Shown in pieces: positions 2,686 through 17,059 of a stretch of 36,049 nt of DNA; position 1 is the stretch's first letter, and each line of letters opens with the position of its first letter. The stretch spans positions 1-36,049 of the forward strand of contig JAIDPH010000281.1 of the NCBI GenBank assembly GCA_029062885.1, given 5' to 3'. The stretch is from Lachnospiraceae bacterium. Its GTDB lineage: Bacteria; Bacillota; Clostridia; Lachnospirales; Lachnospiraceae. Both the position numbers and the translations under genes were made by a program. Under the pieces are notes generated by a model. That model ran no database searches. It worked only from the letters and a program-made list of their open reading frames with translations, and was not told where the DNA came from.

Positions 2686-4512
2686 ATGACTACTGAAAAA
2701 TCAAAGGAAAAATATGATTACAAGCTTAGTCAGGAAAACGATCTGGATGAAACCGAGCAGCAATTGCTGGAGACATTTAAAAGGAATCAGAACCATTCGC
2801 TGATAACCCTGTTGGGGCTTTATAAAGGGCATTATCTGGAGCTTTTTTTGTCCATAGTATTTTTTGTAGTAAAGCACTCTCCCGTATGGGTTTTGCCTAT
2901 TGTAACTTCAAATATTGTGAATATTGCTACAAATCCTGACAGTGATGCAGGTAAAAAGATTTTGACTAATGTAGTCATTATGGTGGCGTTGATTGCGCAG
3001 AATGTATTGTCGAACTACTTTCATACCTTGTTTTATGCTAGGTCAATACGAAATGTAGAACGTGATTTGAGAAGTTCCCTGGTGCGGAAGCTGCAGCAAT
3101 TATCCATTACTTATCATAATGAAATGCAGTCGGGAAGATTACAGTCTAAGATTATGAGGGACGTTGAGCAGATTGAAACTTTGTCGTCTCAGATTTTTAT
3201 TACGGTTTTGAGCATTATCATGAATGTAGTAGTTGCGCTTTCAGTTGTTATAACTAAAAGCCTGACGGTTTTCATATTCTTTTTGGGGACGATTCCCGTG
3301 GCTGTATGTATCATGGTGACATTCAGAGGGAAAATCAGGCGTTATAACAAGGCGTTCAGGAAGGATATGGAGGAAACTTCGGTCCATGTAATGGAAATGA
3401 TTGAGATGATTCCGGTTACCAGGGCGCATGCGTTGGAGAAAAAAGAAACCGACAAGATGGACCATCAGCTGTATAATGTAGCAAAGTCAGGGCTGCGGCT
3501 GGATATGGTACAGTCCTATTTTTCATCGATTAGCTGGGTATCTTTCCAGATTTTCCAGGTACTATGTCTTGGATTTACAGGTTACTTGGCGAGTCAGGGG
3601 AAAATCAGCGTTGGTGAAGTGGTTATGTATCAGACCTATTTCAGCTCTATAGTAGCGCAGGTTTCAGGTGTGATAACCTTGCTTCCCACGATTACCAAAG
3701 GTTTGGAATCCGTTGACTCCATTAGTGATGTCATGCTTTGCCATGATGTTGAAGAGTATGAAAATAAGAAAAAGCTCACAGTTTTACGTGGAGAAATTAA
3801 CTTCGTGGATACAGGTTTCAAATATAAGGACGGGGATGCGCCCGTTTTTGAGCATCTGAATCTGAAAATCAAGGAAGGTGAGACGGTTGCATTCGTTGGA
3901 GAGTCCGGGGCTGGCAAAACTACTATACTGAACCTTGTTATAGGTTTCTTCCATGCTACAGAAGGAAAGGTGCTGATAGACGGACAGGATATGGAATCTC
4001 TTGATTTAAAGAGCTACCGCAAAGGGATTGCAGTAGTACCGCAGACGCCGATTCTGTTTTCGGGAACGATACGGGAGAATATTACATATGGAAAAGAAGA
4101 TATTTCTGATGAGGAGCTTAAAGAGGTAATTCGCGCGGCAAATCTTGAAGAGGTCATAAATCAGCTGCCAAATGGTGTGGATACGATGGTAATGGAGCAT
4201 GGCAGCAATCTGTCTGGAGGACAGCGCCAGAGAGTCTCGATTGCCAGGGCTTTCGTAAGAGACCCGAAGATTCTGATTCTGGATGAAGCTACATCTGCGC
4301 TCGATAGCATTTCGGAAGAGAAAATACAAGAAGCTACGGAGAATCTGGTGCATAACCGGACGACGCTGATTGTGGCGCACAGGCTTTCTACGATTAAGAA
4401 TGCAGACCATATCGCGGTGATTGGAAAAGGCGGACTGCGGGAATATGGCACATATGAGGAACTGATGGAGAAAAAAGGAGAGTTTTATCAATTAAGGCAG
4501 CTGCAAATGTAG
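2686..4512 (+). CDS. ABC transporter, fused permease and ATPase (exporter type)
   Basis: A 608-residue half-transporter of the multidrug/lipid exporter class, expected to act as a dimer in the cytoplasmic membrane. The membrane domain (about residues 45-330) has roughly six hydrophobic segments. The ATPase domain has Walker A GESGAGKTT (405-413), signature LSGGQRQRVSIARAF (from 509), Walker B ILILDEATSAL (D533, E534) and the switch stretch LIVAHRLSTI. The ATG at 2686 has GAAAGG 10 bases upstream, a better fit than the ATG at 2677, which is only one base from it. The gene follows element B directly, so any promoter lies in or near the repeat. It stands alone, so it is probably homodimeric; the cargo cannot be read from sequence. 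Confidence 0.9.
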   Translation: MTTEKSKEKYDYKLSQENDLDETEQQLLETFKRNQNHSLITLLGLYKGHYLELFLSIVFFVVKHSPVWVLPIVTSNIVNIATNPDSDAGKKILTNVVIMVALIAQNVLSNYFHTLFYARSIRNVERDLRSSLVRKLQQLSITYHNEMQSGRLQSKIMRDVEQIETLSSQIFITVLSIIMNVVVALSVVITKSLTVFIFFLGTIPVAVCIMVTFRGKIRRYNKAFRKDMEETSVHVMEMIEMIPVTRAHALEKKETDKMDHQLYNVAKSGLRLDMVQSYFSSISWVSFQIFQVLCLGFTGYLASQGKISVGEVVMYQTYFSSIVAQVSGVITLLPTITKGLESVDSISDVMLCHDVEEYENKKKLTVLRGEINFVDTGFKYKDGDAPVFEHLNLKIKEGETVAFVGESGAGKTTILNLVIGFFHATEGKVLIDGQDMESLDLKSYRKGIAVVPQTPILFSGTIRENITYGKEDISDEELKEVIRAANLEEVINQLPNGVDTMVMEHGSNLSGGQRQRVSIARAFVRDPKILILDEATSALDSISEEKIQEATENLVHNRTTLIVAHRLSTIKNADHIAVIGKGGLREYGTYEELMEKKGEFYQLRQLQM

Positions 4513-5864: not shown

Positions 5865-7229
5865 TTAATTAGTCTTTTTCTTTTCATAAGTGTGTATCCA
5901 GTCGGATTTAAAGTAAAATATTGTAAAAATAATGCTGCTCAAAAACCAAGTGAGCGGATATGCCCAAAAGATAACGTTAATTACCGGAATATACCGTACG
6001 ATTATGGTAATATATGTTACCCGAATAACGCACCAGCATATAAGCATGACTATCATGGGAACCGTAGAACGGCCTGACCCCCTGAAAATACCAGCAAGGC
6101 AATGTGAGTAGGACAAAAGGCAGTAAAATAATGTAACAGTACGCGCCTGTATAACGCCGAAAGCGACAACTTCGGGCTCGCTGTTGAATGCGGAAATAAG
6201 CGTCGGTGCAAAAATGTAAATCAATATCCCAATAACTTCTGCCGTTATTACGGAGCAGAGAATACCGAAGCGCGCGCCATTCTTGGCACGGTCATACTGC
6301 CTGGCTCCAAGATTCTGACTGATAAAGGTAGTAAGCGCCATGGAAAAACAGGTTATAGGAAGAAAACCAAAACCCTCTATTTTGGAATAGGAGCCGCAGC
6401 CGGCAACAGCCATTTTACCGAAAGCATTAATATTAGACTGTACCACAATGTTTGCAAAGGCAATTACCGAATTTTGTACGCCTGTCGGAATACCATTTCT
6501 GATTATTTGCTTTAACATATAGAGGTCAAAACGGATGCTTCTTACTTTAATCCTGTATTCTGCATCAATATGAGTCAGACGGTAAAGGCATAAGGATGCA
6601 CTGATAAACTGAGAAATAATGGTAGCGGCGGCAGCAGAGCCGACACCTAGTTGAAGTACCGCTACGAAAAGCAGGTCCAATACTATGTTGGTAACTGAGG
6701 AAATAATCAGGTATATCAGAGGATGCCTGCTGTCACCTGTCGCTTGTAATATACCTACGAAGATGTTGTAAAGCACAAAAGCGAGTGAGCCGCAGAAATA
6801 AATCCTAAAGTACAGTATGGAATTGGGCAGTACATCGGCTGGCGTACCCATTAATATCAGTATCCAGGGTGTAAGCAGAACGCCTAAAACGGTCAATATT
6901 ATACCGGCAGATATACCAAATGCGACGGCAGTATGTACGGCGCGCTCTACTTTATCGGCTTCCCTCGCCCCAAAATAACGGGCAATGACAACGCCGGCGC
7001 CCACCGAGATTCCACCGAAGAATCCAACCAACAGGAAAATGACGCTGCCAGATGAGCTGACGGCTGCCAGAGCATCGGAATTGATAAAATTGCCCACAAT
7101 CAGGGAATCCGCCATATTATAAAGTTGTTGGAAAACATTTCCCAAAAAAAGAGGAAAGGCAAATGCAAGAATTTTCTTCCAGATTGTGCCCTCCGTTAAA
7201 AGAGTTTTTGATGTATTTGAATCGGACAT
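5865..7229 (-). CDS. MATE family efflux transporter
   Basis: A 454-residue, 12-segment membrane protein of the MATE family, expected to export organic compounds or drugs using a sodium or proton gradient. The start region (GTIWKKILAFAFPLFLGNVFQQLYNMADSLIVG, in the first 45 residues) is characteristic, with the usual paired N and C halves. The start MSDSNTSK at 7229 is preceded by AGAAAGG at an 8-base distance, whereas the open frame extends 22 codons further upstream without a ribosome site. Length is normal. The lipoprotein gene follows closely in the same direction. No dedicated regulator is adjacent, and the substrate is unknown. Confidence 0.93.
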   Translation of the reverse strand: MSDSNTSKTLLTEGTIWKKILAFAFPLFLGNVFQQLYNMADSLIVGNFINSDALAAVSSSGSVIFLLVGFFGGISVGAGVVIARYFGAREADKVERAVHTAVAFGISAGIILTVLGVLLTPWILILMGTPADVLPNSILYFRIYFCGSLAFVLYNIFVGILQATGDSRHPLIYLIISSVTNIVLDLLFVAVLQLGVGSAAAATIISQFISASLCLYRLTHIDAEYRIKVRSIRFDLYMLKQIIRNGIPTGVQNSVIAFANIVVQSNINAFGKMAVAGCGSYSKIEGFGFLPITCFSMALTTFISQNLGARQYDRAKNGARFGILCSVITAEVIGILIYIFAPTLISAFNSEPEVVAFGVIQARTVTLFYCLLSYSHCLAGIFRGSGRSTVPMIVMLICWCVIRVTYITIIVRYIPVINVIFWAYPLTWFLSSIIFTIFYFKSDWIHTYEKKKTN

Positions 7230-7586
7230 GATAAATGCCTTTCTGATATTTTTAACTATCATAACACTCGTTTTGGCGCTTGTAAATACATCCAATAGTT
7301 ATTATCCATTGCCGTTAGTCATTCCAGCAATTAGCTTTATTATGGAAAGAATCATATCCTGTTCTTCTTCTGAGGCTCGTTCCCATAACATTTTCACATA
7401 TTGATTCAGACATGTCAAGAGCTAGGTCCATTGAGAAAATCGTTACGGAAAAAAGTGCGGAAAAGTTTTAAATAACAGACAAGAATGCAGGGAAGTATGT
7501 AAAGAAATACTGTGTCTGATACATTTAAATGATGATTTTTGGTAGAAAATCAAGCAAAAATATCAATATTTTCAAATTTGTAGTCG
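7230..7586. other. Gene-poor spacer with a possible regulator remnant
   Basis: No complete gene is seen here. On the minus strand, positions 7302-7418 are open without a ribosome site and could encode MLWERASEEEQDMILSIIKL within a peptide of about 30-39 residues. This resembles the C-terminal tail of small XRE-type regulators and may be a remnant. The rest is AT-rich and has no clear structure. Confidence 0.3.
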
Positions 7587-7615
7587 TTGACTCTTTATGG
7601 GAAAAATGGTATAGT
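7587..7615 (+). promoter_or_regulatory. Sigma-A type promoter of the coiled-coil / metalloprotease cassette
   Basis: TTGACT (7587-7592) and TATAGT (7610-7615) are separated by 17 bases, close to the vegetative consensus. The predicted transcript begins near 7622, about 105 bases before the chosen start of the first cassette gene. No comparably good promoter was seen before the next two genes, which supports a single transcript. Confidence 0.72.
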
Positions 7616-7728
7616 GACAAAGATTATATAATGCAGTCAGCATAGTTTATACAGCCTTTATATCAGTAGCTTAATGGGCAGAAAATACATTGCCATTGAT
7701 GAGACAGCGGAGAGGAACAGATGAAAAG

Positions 7729-8676
7729 ATGGTGAATGATGAACAGCAAATATTGAGACTGAAAATTCTGCGAAAACTGTTGGAATTTCTTAAGGATCCA
7801 AATCAAAAGTATATGCTTTCAACAGCTTTGCAGTATATTCAGCAAGAGTGTGATGAAAAAGATTTTTGTCAGGAACTTCTGATTTTGGTTCAGGAGGGAT
7901 ATATTGAGATAAGCGTGATTGGCGAACCGGACGATGCAAACGGAACTGATACAGATACCGCAAAACAGTTGATTGATGGGGGCTTTTATGATAAGATATT
8001 AATTGCAATTAAAGAGCAGCAAAGCGGACTTTTATTGCGCAACTTCGTTGATGTAAATATTGACATGCTTGAGATGAAATTGCAGTTCAATAAAGTGAAG
8101 GATATCCTGGAGCAATACAATAAAGAACAACAGGATATATCAAACATCCACTCTGAGTTCCGGCAGAAATATGATGATTTTACGTCGCACATGGGTGAAT
8201 TGGACAGTAAGCAGAAAGATTTGGAGAATCAAATCGATCAGGGAAAGAAGGATTTGACAGAGCAGGCTGAGAGTGAATATAATAGTTTTGTACAGAAATT
8301 GGGAGAGAAGCAAGAGGATATAGAAAAATCCGCAGTGAATGGGGCGGAGGAAAAAGCGGTAGAAACGATTGAAGAGGAAATCAAGTCAACAGGTAGAATC
8401 GGTCAGGCGATGCAGGATGCTCAGAAAAGTATTATACAGTATTTAGCTATTTTTGTTGCAATATTTGCGTTGGTGAATATTAATGTTGTAAATGCGGCAA
8501 AATGGTCATATGAGGAGTTGTTTCGTGTGAATGTTATAATGACTACGTCTATGGCTACAATGGTTATGCTGGTGCATGCATTTACGAATAAAGAGCATAA
8601 ATGGTTCAGGTGGGTAATTGTATTATTGGCACTGCTATGGATTGTGTTGGCGGGCAGTGTTTTTATTTTTAAATAA
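7729..8676 (+). CDS. Coiled-coil protein with three C-terminal membrane segments, unknown function
   Basis: About 315 residues, no family recognised. Residues 1-65 are helical and charged and could form a small winged-helix-like or helical bundle domain. Residues 117-225 are rich in Glu, Lys and Gln in a heptad-like pattern and probably form a long coiled coil. Three hydrophobic stretches (about 234-254, 265-284, 295-315) place the C-terminus in the membrane, with the coiled coil in the cytoplasm. The ATG at 7729 has GAGAGGA upstream at a rather long 13 bases; in-frame TTG 7690 and ATG 7699 lack ribosome sites. It is first in a probable operon with a 58-codon gene and a putative metalloprotease. 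A sensor or membrane effector role is conceivable, by context only. Confidence 0.8.
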   Translation: MVNDEQQILRLKILRKLLEFLKDPNQKYMLSTALQYIQQECDEKDFCQELLILVQEGYIEISVIGEPDDANGTDTDTAKQLIDGGFYDKILIAIKEQQSGLLLRNFVDVNIDMLEMKLQFNKVKDILEQYNKEQQDISNIHSEFRQKYDDFTSHMGELDSKQKDLENQIDQGKKDLTEQAESEYNSFVQKLGEKQEDIEKSAVNGAEEKAVETIEEEIKSTGRIGQAMQDAQKSIIQYLAIFVAIFALVNINVVNAAKWSYEELFRVNVIMTTSMATMVMLVHAFTNKEHKWFRWVIVLLALLWIVLAGSVFIFK

Positions 8677-8754
8677 AATGGTTTGTTGCATGAAAACATC
8701 AGTGCTGGGGAGCATATGATAGAAAGTAAGGATATAGCGGGGAGGAAATGACAC

Positions 8755-8931
8755 GTGGAGAGAGGAATACTATTCCCAAAGGCTAATAAGACTATAAAAG
8801 AAAGTCAGAAAACTTTTTGTTTTGCGGATGTTCAGAAGAGCACCTTATGGGATGGGAAAGAGCAGAGAGAGATCAATAGCCGGCAGGCGATGGAGTTGGA
8901 TGAACTTATTCAAAAAATAATATTGCAATAG
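8755..8931 (+). CDS. Small 58-residue protein with GTG start, unknown function
   Basis: A short reading frame fills the gap between the coiled-coil and protease genes. It begins at GTG 8755, nine bases after a strong GGGGAGG site (8739-8745), and ends with TAG at 8929-8931, two bases before the next frame opens. The product starts VERGILFPKANKTIKES, contains FCFADVQKSTLWDGKEQR and ends in a helical MELDELIQKII. It has no signal peptide or membrane segment. The tight junction suggests translational coupling to the downstream gene. It could be an adaptor, antitoxin-like or regulatory partner; nothing in the sequence decides this. An ATG at 8748 in another frame gives only 12 codons. Confidence 0.6.
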   Translation: MERGILFPKANKTIKESQKTFCFADVQKSTLWDGKEQREINSRQAMELDELIQKIILQ

Positions 8932-8933
8932 AT

Positions 8934-11210
8934 TTGAAGAAATGGATACTAACAATGCAGAGAGAACAAAATAATCAGGTTGATGGTTACATCATTAAAT
9001 TATATAAAAAAATCGTTAATGTTCCCCAGCATACGTTTACTGACGATGCTTCGTTTATAACGTGGATGAATTTTGACAGTATGGATATTATATCGGTATC
9101 TGATTATCATGAATTTGATAAATCTCTCAATGCAAGTGACCTAAAAGACAGAGAAAGATATCAAAGCCGTCAAAAAATATATTTATACCCCCTGAATGAA
9201 GATCAGGGACTTGTTCTTAGTGATTCTGCACTGGAAAAGTTCCCACTTATTGCAATGACATTCTTAGACTTCAGCCGGCAATGTGGCAAACAGCCATTGT
9301 TAAACGAAAAGTTTCTGTATGAAATCTTAGATAAGTGTATTGATAATAACACAAATGTAAAAGGGCAGTTGTATGGCAGCCTGTCCGTCTATGATTATGT
9401 TCTTGTTTTGCGTGGAAAGACTTACGCGGAACTCGATCAGGTTCTGAACAACTTTCGAAGAATTATAATAGAGTCTGACATTTCCTATAATAAAACTTAT
9501 ACGATTGAAGGAGTCGATCTGAAGTATCAGGCTTTATGGGAAGAAGAGCCGGATTCTAATGTCTCGATTCGTATATCGTGTGCTTCATGCGTTACTGCTG
9601 AGAACCTTCGTGGTAATCAGGAATTGCAAGATGCTTTGCAGGATGGATATCAGATTTTTTCCTTGATGGGTAAATATGATTATGACATTACCGGAAAAAT
9701 AAAAAATACGCAAAAATTTTTAGCGCTTTTTGCACATGGCAATTTGTTTTCATCTGAGAATGAGAATATTTATAAAACAAATACCAGATTTATGAGTGTT
9801 GAAACGGATGAGTGTGATTTAGCAGAAGTAAATACGACTCAAAGCACAGATATTCAGTCTGTACAGGATGATACTAATCAGTATATCGACCAATACTTGG
9901 AATTAGAGGGTTTATGCCCAAGTATAAAGGAGTCTTTATTACGTCTGATACTTAGAATTACGCAGTCCTGTTCAAGTGTTGGTAGGAATGAAATAAAAAA
10001 GGACTTAAAAAATATATTACAGGATTTTTTGAAATTTCTAAATATCCATCAATACGAAGCAGAGAGGCAGGACGAGTTTGGAAGGATAATTAATTGTATA
10101 AATCTACTTTTGGATAACCGAATTACGGCAGGTATGTCTGACTTTGAGACTCCACATAATGTTTTACGCTATTCGGGTGCCAATTTAAAGGTACTGTTGG
10201 CATATTCTAAATTTGCAGACAAGCTTTTTAAGATTTTACAGTTGTATAAAGAACGAAACGAACAGGTGTTAAAATATGTACATCTGGTTACTACAGATAC
10301 AGGAGCGAAGATTACGGCTACAGTATATTTGAGCTACTGTGAAAGATATCGGTTTATTAATATAAATATACCGGTAGATTTGTTGTTTGATGTACAATAT
10401 GTTTTACCATGGATTACGCATGAAGTGGGGCATTTTATCAGAGTCGGATGGCAGCGGGCAGAAAGAAATGCGGCATACTTTTGGAGCGTCTCCAGAGTCA
10501 TTATGGAGATGTTGAAGGAATATGCCGGTTCTGATAAAGTTATAGGAGAAGGAAGTTTGTTGCTGGGAAAAGCAGCAAACAAGGAAGAGGGCGAGAAGTT
10601 TGATGAATATCGGGAAGATGTATGTCAGTACTATCAAAGCATTATTAATCGAGGGGTTTATGGATATAACATAAAACTTTATATTCCCTATAATTGTTCA
10701 GAGGAACTTTTATCCAAAACAAGGGATATTACGTCTATCCTCCAAAAAGTATATGAAGAGTCTATAGCTGACATTTTTATGGCGCAGGTTTTGGAAATTG
10801 ACAGTCTTACGGAATATCTTCAGATTCAATCCGCTTACTATCGGCACATTAATGTAAATGAATCAGAACTGCCGCTTATAAATATTTCAAGGATTATGGC
10901 GGTCAGTGTTGTTTTAGTAAAGCTGGATGTGAAAGATTATGATAAAATCAAGCAATATTTTAGAAGTTTTTATGACCAGTGCCAAAACGAAACGATCAAA
11001 TCCATTGCGAAACAGCTTAAAGAGTATAAGCATTATTTTATGATAGAACCTTTAGTATCTTTTTTGGGAAAACAGGTAGAAACGGAATTAAGAGAGCTTC
11101 TTCATCAGGAGGGCGTATCGGATATCTGTGGTAAACTGAGAAGGATTTATAAAAATATTAAATCCGGAGATTTCAGAGCGTTTAGGGATTTTGTGGAAGG
11201 ACTCTGCTAA
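8934..11210 (+). CDS. Large protein with HExxH and distal ExxAD motifs, putative gluzincin-type metallopeptidase
   Basis: A 758-residue predicted cytoplasmic protein with no signal peptide or membrane segment; no family recognised. The C-terminal half contains WITHEVGHFIRVGW, with HEVGH at residues 496-500. About 110 residues later comes VYEESIADIFMAQVL (E608/E609, D613), which resembles the third zinc ligand helix of gluzincin peptidases such as thermolysin. The N-terminal half has two stretches, GSLSVYDYVLVLRG (about 148) and LMGKYDYDITGK (about 246), that look alike and may be a repeated alpha/beta fold. The frame opens with TTG at 8934, two bases after the 58-codon gene, while ATG 8955 is an alternative; neither has a good ribosome site, so coupling is likely. 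The region looks more AT-rich than its neighbours. The protease reading is motif-based and the target is unknown. Confidence 0.72.
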   Translation: MKKWILTMQREQNNQVDGYIIKLYKKIVNVPQHTFTDDASFITWMNFDSMDIISVSDYHEFDKSLNASDLKDRERYQSRQKIYLYPLNEDQGLVLSDSALEKFPLIAMTFLDFSRQCGKQPLLNEKFLYEILDKCIDNNTNVKGQLYGSLSVYDYVLVLRGKTYAELDQVLNNFRRIIIESDISYNKTYTIEGVDLKYQALWEEEPDSNVSIRISCASCVTAENLRGNQELQDALQDGYQIFSLMGKYDYDITGKIKNTQKFLALFAHGNLFSSENENIYKTNTRFMSVETDECDLAEVNTTQSTDIQSVQDDTNQYIDQYLELEGLCPSIKESLLRLILRITQSCSSVGRNEIKKDLKNILQDFLKFLNIHQYEAERQDEFGRIINCINLLLDNRITAGMSDFETPHNVLRYSGANLKVLLAYSKFADKLFKILQLYKERNEQVLKYVHLVTTDTGAKITATVYLSYCERYRFININIPVDLLFDVQYVLPWITHEVGHFIRVGWQRAERNAAYFWSVSRVIMEMLKEYAGSDKVIGEGSLLLGKAANKEEGEKFDEYREDVCQYYQSIINRGVYGYNIKLYIPYNCSEELLSKTRDITSILQKVYEESIADIFMAQVLEIDSLTEYLQIQSAYYRHINVNESELPLINISRIMAVSVVLVKLDVKDYDKIKQYFRSFYDQCQNETIKSIAKQLKEYKHYFMIEPLVSFLGKQVETELRELLHQEGVSDICGKLRRIYKNIKSGDFRAFRDFVEGLC

Positions 11211-11345
11211 TTTGGGATTGTAATCTTATTATATTAAAAATGAGAATTATGATGAAAAAGAAGAAAACATCCATATATGTCAGTATACTGATTTATTTAT
11301 ATCAGGAATTAGGGATGTCCAGGGAAGCAATTCTGTGTATAAGCG
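11211..11345. other. Short spacer between the protease gene and the LURP-one gene
   Basis: AT-rich spacer between convergent genes. A 41-codon frame beginning at ATG 11240 runs into the LURP-one gene but has no ribosome site. No terminator hairpin with a clear T-tract was identified. Confidence 0.3.
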
Positions 11346-11816
11346 TTAATCATTATTACAATTAGCCGCATCAATGGCAATGACTAAGAACAGCCCGTCA
11401 AGTTCATCTGCCGGGTTCGCATAGTCGATTACGTAAGTGTCTCCCCAGTGAAGCAGCTCTTTGGATATATGAATAATTCTGCTGCCCCCGCTATAAACGT
11501 CATAGTCCCAGCCAAGAAAATTTCCCTCCACTCGCCAGCCGTTATAGTTGATTTCATATTTTGGATTAATCAATGAAAATTGCTTTTGGATCAATCCCTT
11601 TTTTCTTCCTCCGATTTCGATTTCAAAAGCAGGAAGAAAGGTTAGTATTCGCTGATGTATTATGCCTATTTCATTTTTATTATGGTCATATACGTGGAGT
11701 TGATGCCCTAATGCTATAAGCTCTGCTTTAACGAAATATCTGACATTTCCGCTTTCATCGTAAACGTCATATGAATCAGTCCAAGAAAACACTCTTTGCT
11801 TTATTAATAGTTTCAT
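11346..11816 (-). CDS. LURP-one-related family protein (tubby-like fold)
   Basis: A 156-residue protein matching the LURP-one-related family, a tubby-like beta-barrel fold found in bacteria and plants. Typical features are the opening MKLLIKQRVFSWTDSYDVYD, then an alternating strand pattern in which a short nucleotide- or lipid-like cargo signal (YFVKAEL, GHQLHVYD) repeats, and the late WGDTYVIDY and LFLVIAIDAA stretches. The family is thought to act as a membrane-tethered or scaffold-like protein, but the bacterial role is not established. GGGAGG precedes the ATG at a good distance. It is convergent with the metalloprotease gene and divergent from the MerR-methyltransferase gene, with no obvious operon partner. 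Confidence 0.85.
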   Translation of the reverse strand: MKLLIKQRVFSWTDSYDVYDESGNVRYFVKAELIALGHQLHVYDHNKNEIGIIHQRILTFLPAFEIEIGGRKKGLIQKQFSLINPKYEINYNGWRVEGNFLGWDYDVYSGGSRIIHISKELLHWGDTYVIDYANPADELDGLFLVIAIDAANCNND

Positions 11817-11925
11817 TACGCATCCTCCCTGTTAATATTAGTGTATCATAAACCACACATAATTGCTATGACTTTTCCGACTGTGTTTATTCGTTTATTA
11901 AAATTATTTTTCTTGAATTTTTTAC

Positions 11926-11956
11926 TTGACCATTACCTTACGTCACCCTGTATTAT
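11926..11956 (+). promoter_or_regulatory. MerR-type promoter with 19-bp spacer (MerR-methyltransferase gene)
   Basis: TTGACC (11926-11931) and TATTAT (11951-11956) are 19 bases apart, the elongated spacing that MerR family regulators correct by twisting DNA. The spacer begins ATTACCTTACGT, nearly the same as the start of the spacer at the second MerR gene (14661 onward). Autoregulation is therefore likely. Confidence 0.6.
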
Positions 11957-12016
11957 AGATATACAGATATCTGAAAAATGCAATATGATATTGTGCCGGT
12001 ACGGAAAGGACAATCA

Positions 12017-13213
12017 ATGAAAAAAGAATTATACACCGCAGGAGATATTGCCCGCATCGCCGGAGTCTCCCTGCGCACCATACGTTATTACGATACAAAG
12101 GGGCTGCTTCCCCCGGTATCACACTCGGAGAGCGGCTACCGCTGCTACGATAAGAGTTCAATCATTCTTCTTCAGAGAATACTGATGCTGAAGTATCTGG
12201 GCTTTTCTCTGGAACAGATTCAGCAGTTGATTACCGCTCAGAATGCAGACGCCTTGAACCAAGAGGCTATTTTGTCCCAGCAGAAGAGTCTGCTTCTGGA
12301 ACGCAAGGAGCAGTTAGAACTACTGATTTCCACTATTGAATTGGCACAACAAAGCACCGAGGAAGATAAATGGCAGGTGCTGGTGCGCTGCCTGAATCTG
12401 CTGACCAGTGAAGAAAAAGTTCTGGAACAGTACCGGAACCCCGAAAACTTAAACCGCCGGATAAATATACACAATTATTCTACCAGTCCTCAGGGGTGGA
12501 TGGAATGGGTCTATGAACGCCTGAACTTACAGCCCGGAGAGACTGTGTTAGAGCTGGGATGCGGTACGGGACTGCTTTGGATGGAGCGCACCCATCTGTT
12601 GCCGGATGGACTGCGGTTGATCCTCACCGACCGCTCGGAAGAGATGCTGGAGCAGACCCGCCAAAATCTGATGCCTTATGAGGAAGAACTGAAGGCCCGT
12701 CAAATTCAAATTGAATATCAGATAATGGATGCGAATACTTTGGAATTGCCCGTAGCTTCTTATGACCGTATCATTGCCAATCACATGCTGTATCATGTAG
12801 AGCGTCGGGACACCTGTCTGGCCGCCATAACAAGGGCGTTAAAGCCGAAAGGTACTTTCTACTGTTCCACTGTGGGGGATACCCACATGCAGGAACTTCA
12901 CCAATTGGTCATTGCTTTCGATCCCCGGATTGATATGCCTTTCAGGAACCTGACAGGTGACTTTCATCTGGAAAATGCCACGCCACAGCTGACGAGACAC
13001 TTTGCCCATGTTGAGAGGCGGGATCAGGATAACGACCTTATCGTGGATGACGCCCAGGCTATCTATGATTATATTTACTCTTTCCCCGGTAATGCTTCCC
13101 TGATTCTGGAACAGAGGGGGCAGGAACTGTTTAAAATGATACAGGATAAGTTAAGCCGCGAAGGGGCTATGTTCATACACAAGTCCACGGGAATGTTTAT
13201 TTGTAGGAAGTAG
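12017..13213 (+). CDS. MerR family regulator fused to a SAM-dependent methyltransferase
   Basis: A 398-residue fusion. Residues 1-75 are a MerR DNA-binding domain (YTAGDIARIAGVSLRTIRYY, then GLLPP and SESGYRCYD), followed by a dimerisation helix to about 130. From about residue 165 there is a class I methyltransferase fold with motif I VLELGCGTGLL, an acidic LTDRSEEMLEQ after strand 2, and a YDRIIANHMLYH segment. The ATG at 12017 has AAGGA six bases upstream; an in-frame upstream ATG at 11978 lies just after the -10 box and is unlikely. The MerR part probably autoregulates. The acceptor of the methyl group is unknown; the methyltransferase resembles small-molecule enzymes. The 3' end overlaps the convergent MATE gene by 17 bases. 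Confidence 0.88.
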   Translation: MKKELYTAGDIARIAGVSLRTIRYYDTKGLLPPVSHSESGYRCYDKSSIILLQRILMLKYLGFSLEQIQQLITAQNADALNQEAILSQQKSLLLERKEQLELLISTIELAQQSTEEDKWQVLVRCLNLLTSEEKVLEQYRNPENLNRRINIHNYSTSPQGWMEWVYERLNLQPGETVLELGCGTGLLWMERTHLLPDGLRLILTDRSEEMLEQTRQNLMPYEEELKARQIQIEYQIMDANTLELPVASYDRIIANHMLYHVERRDTCLAAITRALKPKGTFYCSTVGDTHMQELHQLVIAFDPRIDMPFRNLTGDFHLENATPQLTRHFAHVERRDQDNDLIVDDAQAIYDYIYSFPGNASLILEQRGQELFKMIQDKLSREGAMFIHKSTGMFICRK

Positions 13214-14711: not shown

Positions 14712-15440
14712 ATGATGACAGTAAATGAAGTAAGCAAATTGACAGGCGTGAGTATACGCACCCTGCAATATTATGACAAAATCGGTCTTTTGCATCCTGC
14801 AAAATATAGTGAGTCAGGCTACAGACTGTATGACGATACAGCGCTGGAGAAGCTGCAGCATATTTTATTGTTTCGTGAGTTGGAATTTCCGTTAAAGGAT
14901 ATCAAGGTAATTATGGATAGTCCTGATTTTGACAGAAGTAAGGCATTGGAACAGCAGATAACATTATTGACGTTGAAAAAGGAACATTTAGAAAACCTGA
15001 TATGTCTTGCTCGTGGAATAAAAATGAATGGAGTGAAAAAGATGGATTTTTCAGCATTTGATACAAGTAAGATGGATGAATACGCAGCACAGGCGAAGGC
15101 ATCATGGGGAAATACGCCTGAGTACCATGAATACGAGGAAAAGGCAAAGGGGCGCACAAAGCAGGAAGAACAGAACATCGGTAAGAATATGATGCAGATT
15201 TTCACTGAGTTTGGGACAATGCTTGATTTTCAGCCAGATTCCGAAAAAGTTCAGGCACAGGTGAAAAAATTGCAGGATTTTATTACTGAGAATTTTTATA
15301 CCTGCTCTGATGACATCTTACATTCGTTTGGGAATATGTATGCCGGCGGCGGAGATTTCACAACGAATATCGACAGAGCAGGCGGTGAAGGCACGGCGGA
15401 ATTTGTGTCTCGGGCGATAGAGATTTATTGTAGGAAATAA
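14712..15440 (+). CDS. MerR family regulator with TipAS-like drug-sensing domain
   Basis: A 242-residue transcriptional activator of the TipA type. Residues 1-70 are the MerR winged helix-turn-helix (VNEVSKLTGVSIRTLQYYDK, SESGYRLYD); residues 75-110 form the dimerisation helix. Residues 120-242 match the TipAS ligand domain, including YEEKAKGRTKQEEQNIGKN and a closing GTAEFVSRAIEIYC. TipAS domains bind macrocyclic antibiotics in relatives. Two adjacent ATGs (14712, 14715) follow AGGAGG; the first is used here. The gene is divergent from the MATE exporter and has its own palindrome in a 19-bp spacer, which suggests autoregulation and drug-responsive control of the exporter. The ligand is not known. 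Confidence 0.92.
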   Translation: MMTVNEVSKLTGVSIRTLQYYDKIGLLHPAKYSESGYRLYDDTALEKLQHILLFRELEFPLKDIKVIMDSPDFDRSKALEQQITLLTLKKEHLENLICLARGIKMNGVKKMDFSAFDTSKMDEYAAQAKASWGNTPEYHEYEEKAKGRTKQEEQNIGKNMMQIFTEFGTMLDFQPDSEKVQAQVKKLQDFITENFYTCSDDILHSFGNMYAGGGDFTTNIDRAGGEGTAEFVSRAIEIYCRK

Positions 15441-15638: not shown

Positions 15639-16250
15639 ATGGGCAGGATTATCTTTTCCTATAGGATTGCTTATGATATGGGTTTTGCACCATGTATAGA
15701 TAACAATATTTTTACTCTGGCCTGCTGTAAAGGAGGGCAGATTCGGAATGGTAAGAATATAATTACCGGTCTTAGGTATCATGTTGGACAACATTATTAC
15801 AGGAATCCTGTTGATGAAATATACCTTTTCGGTATTTATAAAAATGGTATGCTCTATTATGCAAGGATAACAGATGTTATCACGATGAATGAATATTTCT
15901 CAACGCGGGGTAAAAGCGTATATGGAGACAGAACAGATCAAATATATGATGCAGAAGCCGGTATATTAAAGCGGAATGACTTATTACCGCATATACACCC
16001 CAAAGGATCTGGCCAGAACGAACAGGACAGGAATGGCCATTATGTATTAGTTTCCCGGCAATTTACATACTTTGGGAAAAATGCTCCTGCTATTGACACT
16101 GAAATTCTGCGCATGCTTCCTAAAAACAGGGAGGTTAAAAGATATGCGGATTCTTGTTCGGAGCACGAGATTATTCACAGCTATGCGATGGGGTTAATCG
16201 GTTCTTTTCAGGGAGTAATCGGTGCGCCGCATGATTCTCTTTATGACTGA
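15639..16250 (+). CDS. Nmad2-like protein (nucleotide modification associated domain 2)
   Basis: A 203-residue cytoplasmic protein. The N-terminal pattern FSYRIAYDMGFAPCIDNN followed by FTLACCKGGQIR fits my recollection of the Nmad2 family, whose members begin with a DxGFAP motif and a TLACCKP-type motif. YFGKNAP and a helical C-terminus follow. Nmad proteins were predicted by comparative genomics to act with DNA or nucleotide modification systems; no biochemical reaction is established. AAGGG lies 7 bases before the ATG. The Nmad3-like gene starts 17 bases after this stop, so the two form an operon. No other modification enzyme is adjacent, which is unusual if this is a complete system. Confidence 0.72.
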   Translation: MGRIIFSYRIAYDMGFAPCIDNNIFTLACCKGGQIRNGKNIITGLRYHVGQHYYRNPVDEIYLFGIYKNGMLYYARITDVITMNEYFSTRGKSVYGDRTDQIYDAEAGILKRNDLLPHIHPKGSGQNEQDRNGHYVLVSRQFTYFGKNAPAIDTEILRMLPKNREVKRYADSCSEHEIIHSYAMGLIGSFQGVIGAPHDSLYD

Positions 16251-16267
16251 TTATTTAAGGAGTGGTA

Positions 16268-17059
16268 ATGAAGATTATATTATCCAGAAAGGGATTTGAT
16301 ACCACAAGCGGCGGCTGTCCCAGTCCGATTCTGCCGGATGGAACATTATTATCTTTGCCCATACCTGATGAGGAAGATCTTAAGTATAGTGATCTGCAAT
16401 ATAATGGTTTTAGCTATGACAGAATTTTGACCGGTTTAAACCCGAGAGCGGTTTACAGCGGCTGCCATCTTGATCCGGATATTCGGGAAGGCGTTCGAAT
16501 CGTGCCGGCAGATAACTGGCGGCCTGCTTTCGGTCAGACGGGAAGCGCGTTGGGGATACTGCGTAATGCGGAAGTAACAGTCGGGGATTTGTTCCTGTTT
16601 TTCGGAATCTTTCGGCAGACAGAATATGATAAAGATGGAGTTTTAAGGTTCGCATATGAAAAAGGCGCGGTTCATATGATTCATAGTTATCTGCAAATAG
16701 GGGAAATTTTGGATACGCCTGAAAAAATTAAGAAATGCAGTTGGCATCCCCATGCTGATTTTGAAAGATATCGATCAGATCGCAATGCCCTGTATCTTGC
16801 AAGTGAAAAATTAAGTTTATGTCCATCCCTTCCGGGGTGCGGCGTTCTTTCTTACAGAGAGGACCGGGTTTTAACTATGGAAGGAAAAACTCCTGCAACC
16901 TGGCGGGAATATGAATTTTTGATGCCGGATCATATTATTGGAAACAGAAAAAACAGCGCCAGATGCGGCGGGCTGTATTATCAGGGGCAGTGGCAGGAAC
17001 TGATTCTAAAACCGGATAAAGAGGCAGAGGAATGGGCGGTAAAATTATTAAGTGAATAA
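16268..17059 (+). CDS. Nmad3-like protein (nucleotide modification associated domain 3)
   Basis: A 263-residue protein whose opening MKIILSRKGFDTTSGGCPSP then ILPDGTLLSLPIPDE matches the conserved start of the Nmad3 family as I know it. Later conserved-looking parts are YSGCHLDPDI, FGQTGSALGIL, LFLFFGIFRQ, SWHPHADFE and a final LPDHIIGN-like segment (MPDHIIGNRKN). AAGGAG lies five bases before the ATG at 16268; an in-frame GTG at 16262 overlaps that ribosome site and is not used. Nmad3 is a predicted component of DNA-modification-linked conflict systems with unknown chemistry. Tandem location with Nmad2 suggests that the two work together. Confidence 0.78.
   Translation: MKIILSRKGFDTTSGGCPSPILPDGTLLSLPIPDEEDLKYSDLQYNGFSYDRILTGLNPRAVYSGCHLDPDIREGVRIVPADNWRPAFGQTGSALGILRNAEVTVGDLFLFFGIFRQTEYDKDGVLRFAYEKGAVHMIHSYLQIGEILDTPEKIKKCSWHPHADFERYRSDRNALYLASEKLSLCPSLPGCGVLSYREDRVLTMEGKTPATWREYEFLMPDHIIGNRKNSARCGGLYYQGQWQELILKPDKEAEEWAVKLLSE

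Follow-up and report, generated by a model that had tools for sequence, protein, structure and literature searches.

We describe a three-gene cassette in a 36,049-nucleotide (nt) contig (JAIDPH010000281.1; the whole stretch is called the window here) from the draft genome of a Lachnospiraceae bacterium (GCA_029062885.1; 404 contigs, estimated to be 96.7% complete), and the protein family to which the third and largest of its genes belongs. The original prediction, made from the DNA letters, described three co-directional frames with tight or coupled junctions, and the coordinates of the open reading frames (ORFs) confirm that all three lie on the plus strand (Table 1). Genes 1 and 2 are separated by 78 nt and genes 2 and 3 by 2 nt if gene 3 begins at TTG, or by 23 nt if it begins at ATG, and therefore only the gene 2-gene 3 junction is tight. 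ATG is the probable start of gene 1, and probably also of gene 3, where it is preferred over the upstream TTG because the N-terminus of a relative, L033, sits near a conserved GYII; the GTG start of gene 2 is preceded by GGGGAGGA. In Pfam and NCBIfam all three proteins stay below the cut-offs, gene 3 gives no convincing PADLOC match, and neither large protein clearly matches a housekeeping family, in keeping with the view that no known family is represented.

Table 1 Features of the cassette, with positions in the window
Feature	Positions	Strand	Description
Gene 1	7729..8676	+	315 aa from ATG 7729; ORF opens at TTG 7690 (328 aa)
Gene 2	8755..8931	+	58 aa, GTG start; position kept, sequence poorly kept in relatives
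Gene 3 (core protein)	8955..11210	+	751 aa from ATG 8955; opening at TTG 8934 gives 758 aa
N-terminal conserved half of gene 3	8985..9809	+	Residues 11-285; alternating strands and helices in low-confidence models
HEVGH	10419..10433	+	Residues 489-493 of the protein from ATG 8955; predicted zinc ligands and catalytic Glu
ESIAD	10758..10772	+	Residues 602-606 of the protein from ATG 8955; would supply the third zinc ligand of a gluzincin
Promoter-like site TTGACT-17-TATAGT	7587..7615	+	10/12 matches; TG before second hexamer
Promoter-like site TTGACA-18-TATAAT	8254..8283	+	12/12 matches, inside gene 1; sole perfect site in 7250-11400; consensus match only

The gene 3 product and its homologues, which we call the core proteins, share two motifs. 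HExxH together with a downstream ExxAD provides the ligands of gluzincin-type zinc peptidases, and the HEVGH and distal ESIAD pointed out in the original prediction are both present in gene 3 and conserved in its relatives. HExxH occurs in 6/6 core proteins and falls in one column of a five-row alignment, with the L050 copy aligning with that of L041; [E/D]xxAD is aligned in all five proteins that reach that far (Glu in four, Asp in L033), the L050 sequence ending before this region, and the start-to-start spacing of the two motifs ranges from 113 residues in the window to 319 in L042. Because HExxH is found in all six proteins and [E/D]xxAD in the five complete members, we conclude that the core proteins are a conserved gluzincin-like family of putative zinc peptidases, and the observation goes beyond chance, HExxH being aligned across members and the order of the genes being repeated in a distant genome. 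The core resembles M48-type and other gluzincin peptidases in the order of HExxH and ExxAD, 113 residues further on in the window protein, and differs from them in lacking a Pfam peptidase match, in having no membrane segment noted and in carrying a large extra N-terminal half. No peptidase model matches the gene 3 protein in Pfam, NCBIfam or the PDB sequences; the latter hold nothing of note for the window proteins and no match to a two-row core profile. The PADLOC match of gene 3, Csx19 at an E-value of 0.0034, is not repeated by the L028/L033 counterpart, and PHROGs returns weak matches only, of the coiled-coil type for gene 1.

Five core relatives are found; four belong to the same family as the window, and the fifth to another family of the same order. 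The genome draws overlap, so that the total of 2000 genomes reported by the search tool does not correspond to 2000 distinct genomes. Searched with the single sequence, 200 genomes of the family yield the window's own genome only, and 392 genomes of the order yield G264 at 3.2e-16, a Defluviitaleaceae metagenome-assembled genome (WRBA01000029.1; Clostridia, Lachnospirales in the NCBI taxonomy) that carries locus L033. A two-row profile recovers the own genome alone from 391 genomes of the class (E ≤ 0.001) and three weak, unconfirmed matches from 378 genomes of the phylum (0.05). With the same two-row profile, 397 family genomes give G1408 at 1.9e-8 and G184 as two colinear matches at 2.5e-4 and 3.4e-4; two further matches failed to hold on re-scoring. 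A four-row profile finds G1457 (4.3e-8) among 15 relatives of G184, and G470 moves from 7e-5 with the single sequence to 3e-81 with a five-row profile that contains its near relative L041. The single-sequence order search places 21/392 genomes, the own genome included, at E ≤ 1, from which G264 and later G470 were accepted. Re-scoring with the five-row profile of 14 borderline genomes, drawn from this search, the phylum search and the 397-genome family search, gives no match in 13, G470 alone matching. Ten borderline genomes of that search lay outside the re-scoring (G505, G220, G297, G305, G317, G333, G361, G435, G441 and G487); the G317 match was dropped, its translation reading like a GGDEF/EAL protein, and G199 (L043) and G144 were dropped after re-scoring with the five-row profile.

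Presence of the core is uneven even among close relatives, with one of seven genomes in the family of G264 and one of three in the genus of G1408 carrying it, G264 and G1408 themselves, and no match in the two genomes searched from the window's genus (G060 and G1426). Single-sequence scans of genome contigs and viral contigs return no core relative, and a second scan of genome contigs returns L033 only. Such absences are weak evidence, because the single sequence missed G184, which was apparently present in the 200-genome draw. In single BLASTP comparisons the window core matches L033 at 3e-33 (24% identity over 837 columns), L041 at 6e-8, L050 at 4e-7, L042 at 3e-5 and L048 at 7e-4, and pairwise identity in the N-terminal half runs from 12% to 39% among the core members. 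The core family is thus rare, patchy and fast-evolving. In the single-sequence order search, residues 634-750 of gene 3 weakly match (0.045) a frame with three stops at G000:C387:20-367, which could be a chance match or a decayed copy.

The genes that accompany the core are of several kinds. In the Defluviitaleaceae locus (L028/L033), a coiled-coil/membrane gene, a 60-codon ORF and the core gene follow one another on one strand in the window's order, so that one distant genome has homologues of genes 1 and 3 adjacent to each other, with order and orientation unchanged. Two other kinds of partner, FRG and SIR2, are protein types used in prokaryotic immune systems. L041 carries an FRG domain fused to the C-terminus of the core (PF08867, 1.5e-20), L042 an FRG gene (2.6e-15) whose start overlaps the end of the core gene by 23 nt, and L048 a SIR2 gene 12 nt downstream of the core (SIR2_2 at 1.1e-16, ThsA at 2e-15); in L050 the region downstream of the core is lost at the contig end. 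This coupling agrees with the conflict-system layout originally proposed. The FRG parts of L041 and L042 also match the PADLOC candidate PDC-S15 (2.7e-35 and 3.9e-22), and a Klebsiella plasmid FRG gene, 28.7% identical to that of L042 over 159 residues, lies near genes annotated as AbiH and CBASS. Frg is called a potential antiviral effector that might be an NAD (nicotinamide adenine dinucleotide)-consuming enzyme, or NADase, in PMC9503650. The resemblance to FRG proteins is seen in these two relatives; the three window genes have no FRG match, and the FRG and PDC-S15 matches do not cover the core part. Likewise, L048 resembles Thoeris in the ThsA and SIR2_2 matches of the gene after the core, and differs from it in that no TIR match is found among the five L048 genes scanned, the upstream gene being metalloprotease-like; no SIR2 or TIR match is found among the window proteins scanned.

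These partners bear on whether the cassette is a unit at all. Ordinary, unrelated chance neighbours, with gene 3 engaged in household proteolysis, would fit the few homologues found and the ordinary immediate flanks (MATE, LURP-one-related-like and MerR-methyltransferase genes), but the same three-part order in L028, immune-type partner genes in three other loci and the patchy presence of the core make this explanation very unlikely.

In 6/6 loci the coding strand carries an ORF of 51-81 codons immediately ahead of the core gene. Over the 400 nt tested this ORF has at least 51 codons in each locus, and the opposite strand has an ORF of 50 codons or more in 0/6. In dinucleotide shuffles of the 400 nt upstream of each core, an ORF of at least 50 codons arises in 4.6% to 18.4% of cases per locus, giving a product of 8.7e-7 for a test that was picked after the ORFs had been seen. 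The small ORFs of L041 and L050 are similar, with 0/2000 shuffles reaching their score and NSFYDVF common to both. We conclude that the cassette probably does include a small, fast-evolving gene, and its product may be the substrate or the inhibitor of the protease.

A small ORF kept upstream of the core in all six loci, with little conservation of sequence, is also what would be expected if the metalloprotease cut the small protein into a peptide signal or toxin, with the membrane protein as target or immunity partner and the NADase-type neighbours as downstream responders. There is precedent in PMC7159879, where a zincin-like metallopeptidase is accompanied by a small precursor that diverges rapidly, with links to conflict systems, and MATE efflux and ABC transporter genes lie upstream in the window; yet the six small ORFs share no C-terminal peptide and no C-terminal motif (FxSxx, RxD or acidic) by eye, no radical-SAM match occurs among the proteins scanned, and the MATE gene is encoded on the opposite strand. 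We consider this peptide-processing explanation unlikely. The likeness to the zincin/FxSxx-COOH systems of PMC7159879 lies in the zincin motif, a small fast-evolving protein alongside (position and size only) and links to conflict genes; the systems described in that source are tied to actinobacterial VMAP- and FtsH-ternary systems, and their precursor motif is not found here by eye.

The same placement of the small ORF directly upstream of a large gene in 6/6 loci recalls a toxin-antitoxin pair, in which the large protein, or the effector fused or adjacent to it, would be a toxin silenced by the small protein. Three of the four small proteins for which charge was computed are basic (L028 +8, L041 +9, L042 +8; window +1; L048 and L050 were not computed), and the fused FRG domain of L041 would suit such a toxin. 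Against this stand the large, conserved and regulatory-looking N-terminal half and the fact that toxins of 750-1200 residues are generally unusual in such pairs, and we judge the arrangement quite unlikely to be of this kind.

Gene 1 was described as a long coiled coil with three C-terminal membrane spans; we find the coiled coil and two strong hydrophobic segments, the third being weaker, and a winged helix in the N-terminal helical region is a guess. Its counterpart in L028/L033, 354 residues long, combines a coiled coil with two membrane segments at the C-terminus and has an extra hydrophobic stretch at 152-170. The two proteins match at 1e-8 in BLASTP; the score of their membrane regions is reached by 0/1000 shuffles and beats 1999/2000 local shuffles, and that of their coiled coils is reached by 1/1000 shuffles. 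The membrane gene is not obligatory, because the four other relatives show no gene 1-like gene ahead of the core, although in three of them the available upstream sequence is only 756-1158 nt long. Where it occurs, its product may be an effector instead of a sensor. Residues 126-320 of gene 1, which comprise coiled coil and membrane part, match LeoBC (PADLOC PDLC03841) at 1.7e-6; in contrast to LeoBC, gene 1 is matched by no GTPase model, its L028 counterpart lacks any PADLOC match, and the LeoBC match is likely due to coiled-coil bias.

The N-terminal half of the core is marked by invariant residues in the six-row alignment (K18, D41, Y78, K112, D147, G239 and D242). Its low-confidence model is best at residues 111-170, where ten-residue means of the predicted local distance difference test (pLDDT) are 59-78, and weakly resembles ferredoxin-like and dimeric alpha/beta-barrel proteins; fold searches with the core models give no significant match. 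On the strength of such models the half is perhaps, and tentatively, a tandem of ferredoxin-like sensor domains. A palm-like unit that makes or binds nucleotides and controls the membrane protein, as in Panoptes, would find some echo in D105, which follows a predicted strand, in the GGxD turn of L041 (GGQD) and L050 (GGND), which recalls palm domains, and in the membrane effector next door, which Panoptes also has according to PMC12657218. This assignment is highly improbable, as the half has no noteworthy Pfam or PDB sequence match, the window has GSLSVYD rather than GGDD or GGDEF, and L042 and L048 have Asn aligned to D105. For an mCpol palm domain there is no model match, the fold search having started from a poor model.

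Taking the protease-like core, its regulatory-looking N-terminal half, the fast-evolving small partner and the exchangeable immune-type effectors together, we read the cassette as one form of a rare, modular, protease-gated conflict system, most likely anti-phage, that combines a sensor-metalloprotease core with exchangeable effectors, and our confidence in this reading is about even. The N-terminal alpha+beta half of the core would sense an infection signal, and a zinc metalloprotease domain of the gluzincin type (HExxH...ExxAD) would make up the C-terminal part. The role of effector would fall to the coiled-coil membrane protein in the window and one relative, and to FRG (ADP-ribosyltransferase-like) or SIR2 (ThsA-like) elsewhere. 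At rest the effector would be silent. A signal acting on the N-terminal half would lead the protease to cleave the upstream small protein or the effector, which would then damage the membrane (window) or deplete NAD+ (relatives), so that the infected cell is stopped. In this way the cassette may represent a type of antiviral self-destruct system that has gone unrecognised. The more specific proposal, an undescribed class of Clostridia immunity in which a sensor-gluzincin cuts a dedicated small protein on infection and frees interchangeable death effectors, as a metalloprotease counterpart of caspase- and trypsin-gated immunity, is tentative and, we think, rather doubtful.

Systems of the sensor-protease-effector kind are already known. 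In Hachiman and AVAST, according to PMC12799240, proteases switch on effectors and modules are swapped between systems, as would be the case here; there, by the same account, trypsin- or caspase-type proteases are paired with nucleases, unlike the gluzincin-like core with NADase-type or membrane partners. Within the open-licence literature searched, the core family and the metalloprotease/NADase-type pairing seem new. If the proposed working is right, metalloproteases are to be counted among the proteases controlling immune cell death in bacteria, a function that can be tested is assigned to a family for which the searched libraries have no model, and a single core exchanges a membrane effector for effectors that consume NAD; the concrete substrate predicted is the effector or the small protein encoded upstream.

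Several observations weigh against this reading of the cassette as a conflict system. No core member appears in the phage, plasmid or viral-contig searches: tblastn against plasmids and phages gives no match for protein 3, the L033 counterpart or L041 residues 1-872, nor does tblastn with the L042 core against plasmids only, and further viral-contig scans with the core and with gene 1 find no match. The NADase-type link comes from three loci, none with the membrane gene, and no NADase-type gene lies beside the window cassette. No defence island is shown, with two PADLOC matches among 10 ORFs of the window flanks and the neighbours of the relatives partly scanned. Four of the 15 core pairs (L041-L042, L041-L048, L042-L048 and L042-L050) have no BLASTP match at 0.01 and are joined via the window protein and the profile. 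The N-terminal regions of gene 1 and its counterpart, taken alone, show no similarity (585/1000 shuffles reach the score), similarity scores of these proteins are inflated by their coiled coils, and the L028 locus is not a tight operon because 155 nt separate its membrane gene from the small ORF. Among the small ORFs only the L041-L050 pair is significant, the window-L041 score being reached by 34/2000 shuffles (11/1000 in an earlier run), and 13/15 pairs show no similarity. The structure models from AlphaFold are of poor quality, with mean pLDDT values of 35 and 49, and contamination of the window's genome is estimated at 6.7%. On balance the original interpretation is partly supported, in the lack of a known family, the motifs of a putative zinc peptidase and the conflict layout; a sensor role of the membrane protein and an adaptor role of the small protein stay conjectural.

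As for expression, the near-consensus promoter reported ahead of gene 1 is present as a site with a fair match, but shuffled sequences contain about as many sites of this kind (17.6 ± 4.3, against 21 in 7250-11400). The perfect site inside gene 1 could, by its match to the consensus, serve as a promoter of genes 2 and 3. The AT-richness remarked on earlier holds mildly, the GC fraction being 0.352-0.379 in the five 1-kb steps of 7001-12000 and 0.370-0.492 in the remaining 31 steps of the window.

Among the relatives, L048 carries at 6080-7252, near the core/SIR2 pair, a gene whose product has hydrophobic segments at the N-terminus as well as a coiled coil; it has no Pfam match above cut-off and is unlike gene 1. 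In L042, the stretch upstream of 9789 on the minus strand, towards the contig end, reads like the 3' portion of a tRNA for Asn and may be an integration scar; ARAGORN does not call it, but reports tRNA-Cys and tRNA-Glu at 3262-3418.

Downstream of the cassette in the window lie a LURP-one/Tubby-like gene on the minus strand (11346-11816; 2.5e-5, just below the Pfam cut-off), a MerR-methyltransferase fusion (11978-13213) and a MerR regulator with a TipAS antibiotic-recognition domain (14712-15440), the first 49 residues of which match PADLOC mad1 at 4.3e-13, probably through the MerR helix-turn-helix only. Two neighbouring genes at 15639-17059, ~4 kb downstream of the cassette, match the nucleotide-modification-associated domains Nmad2 (1e-20) and Nmad3 (8.4e-56), and a 542-residue ORF at 32604-34232 matches PADLOC DrmC models, at best with 1.5e-15.

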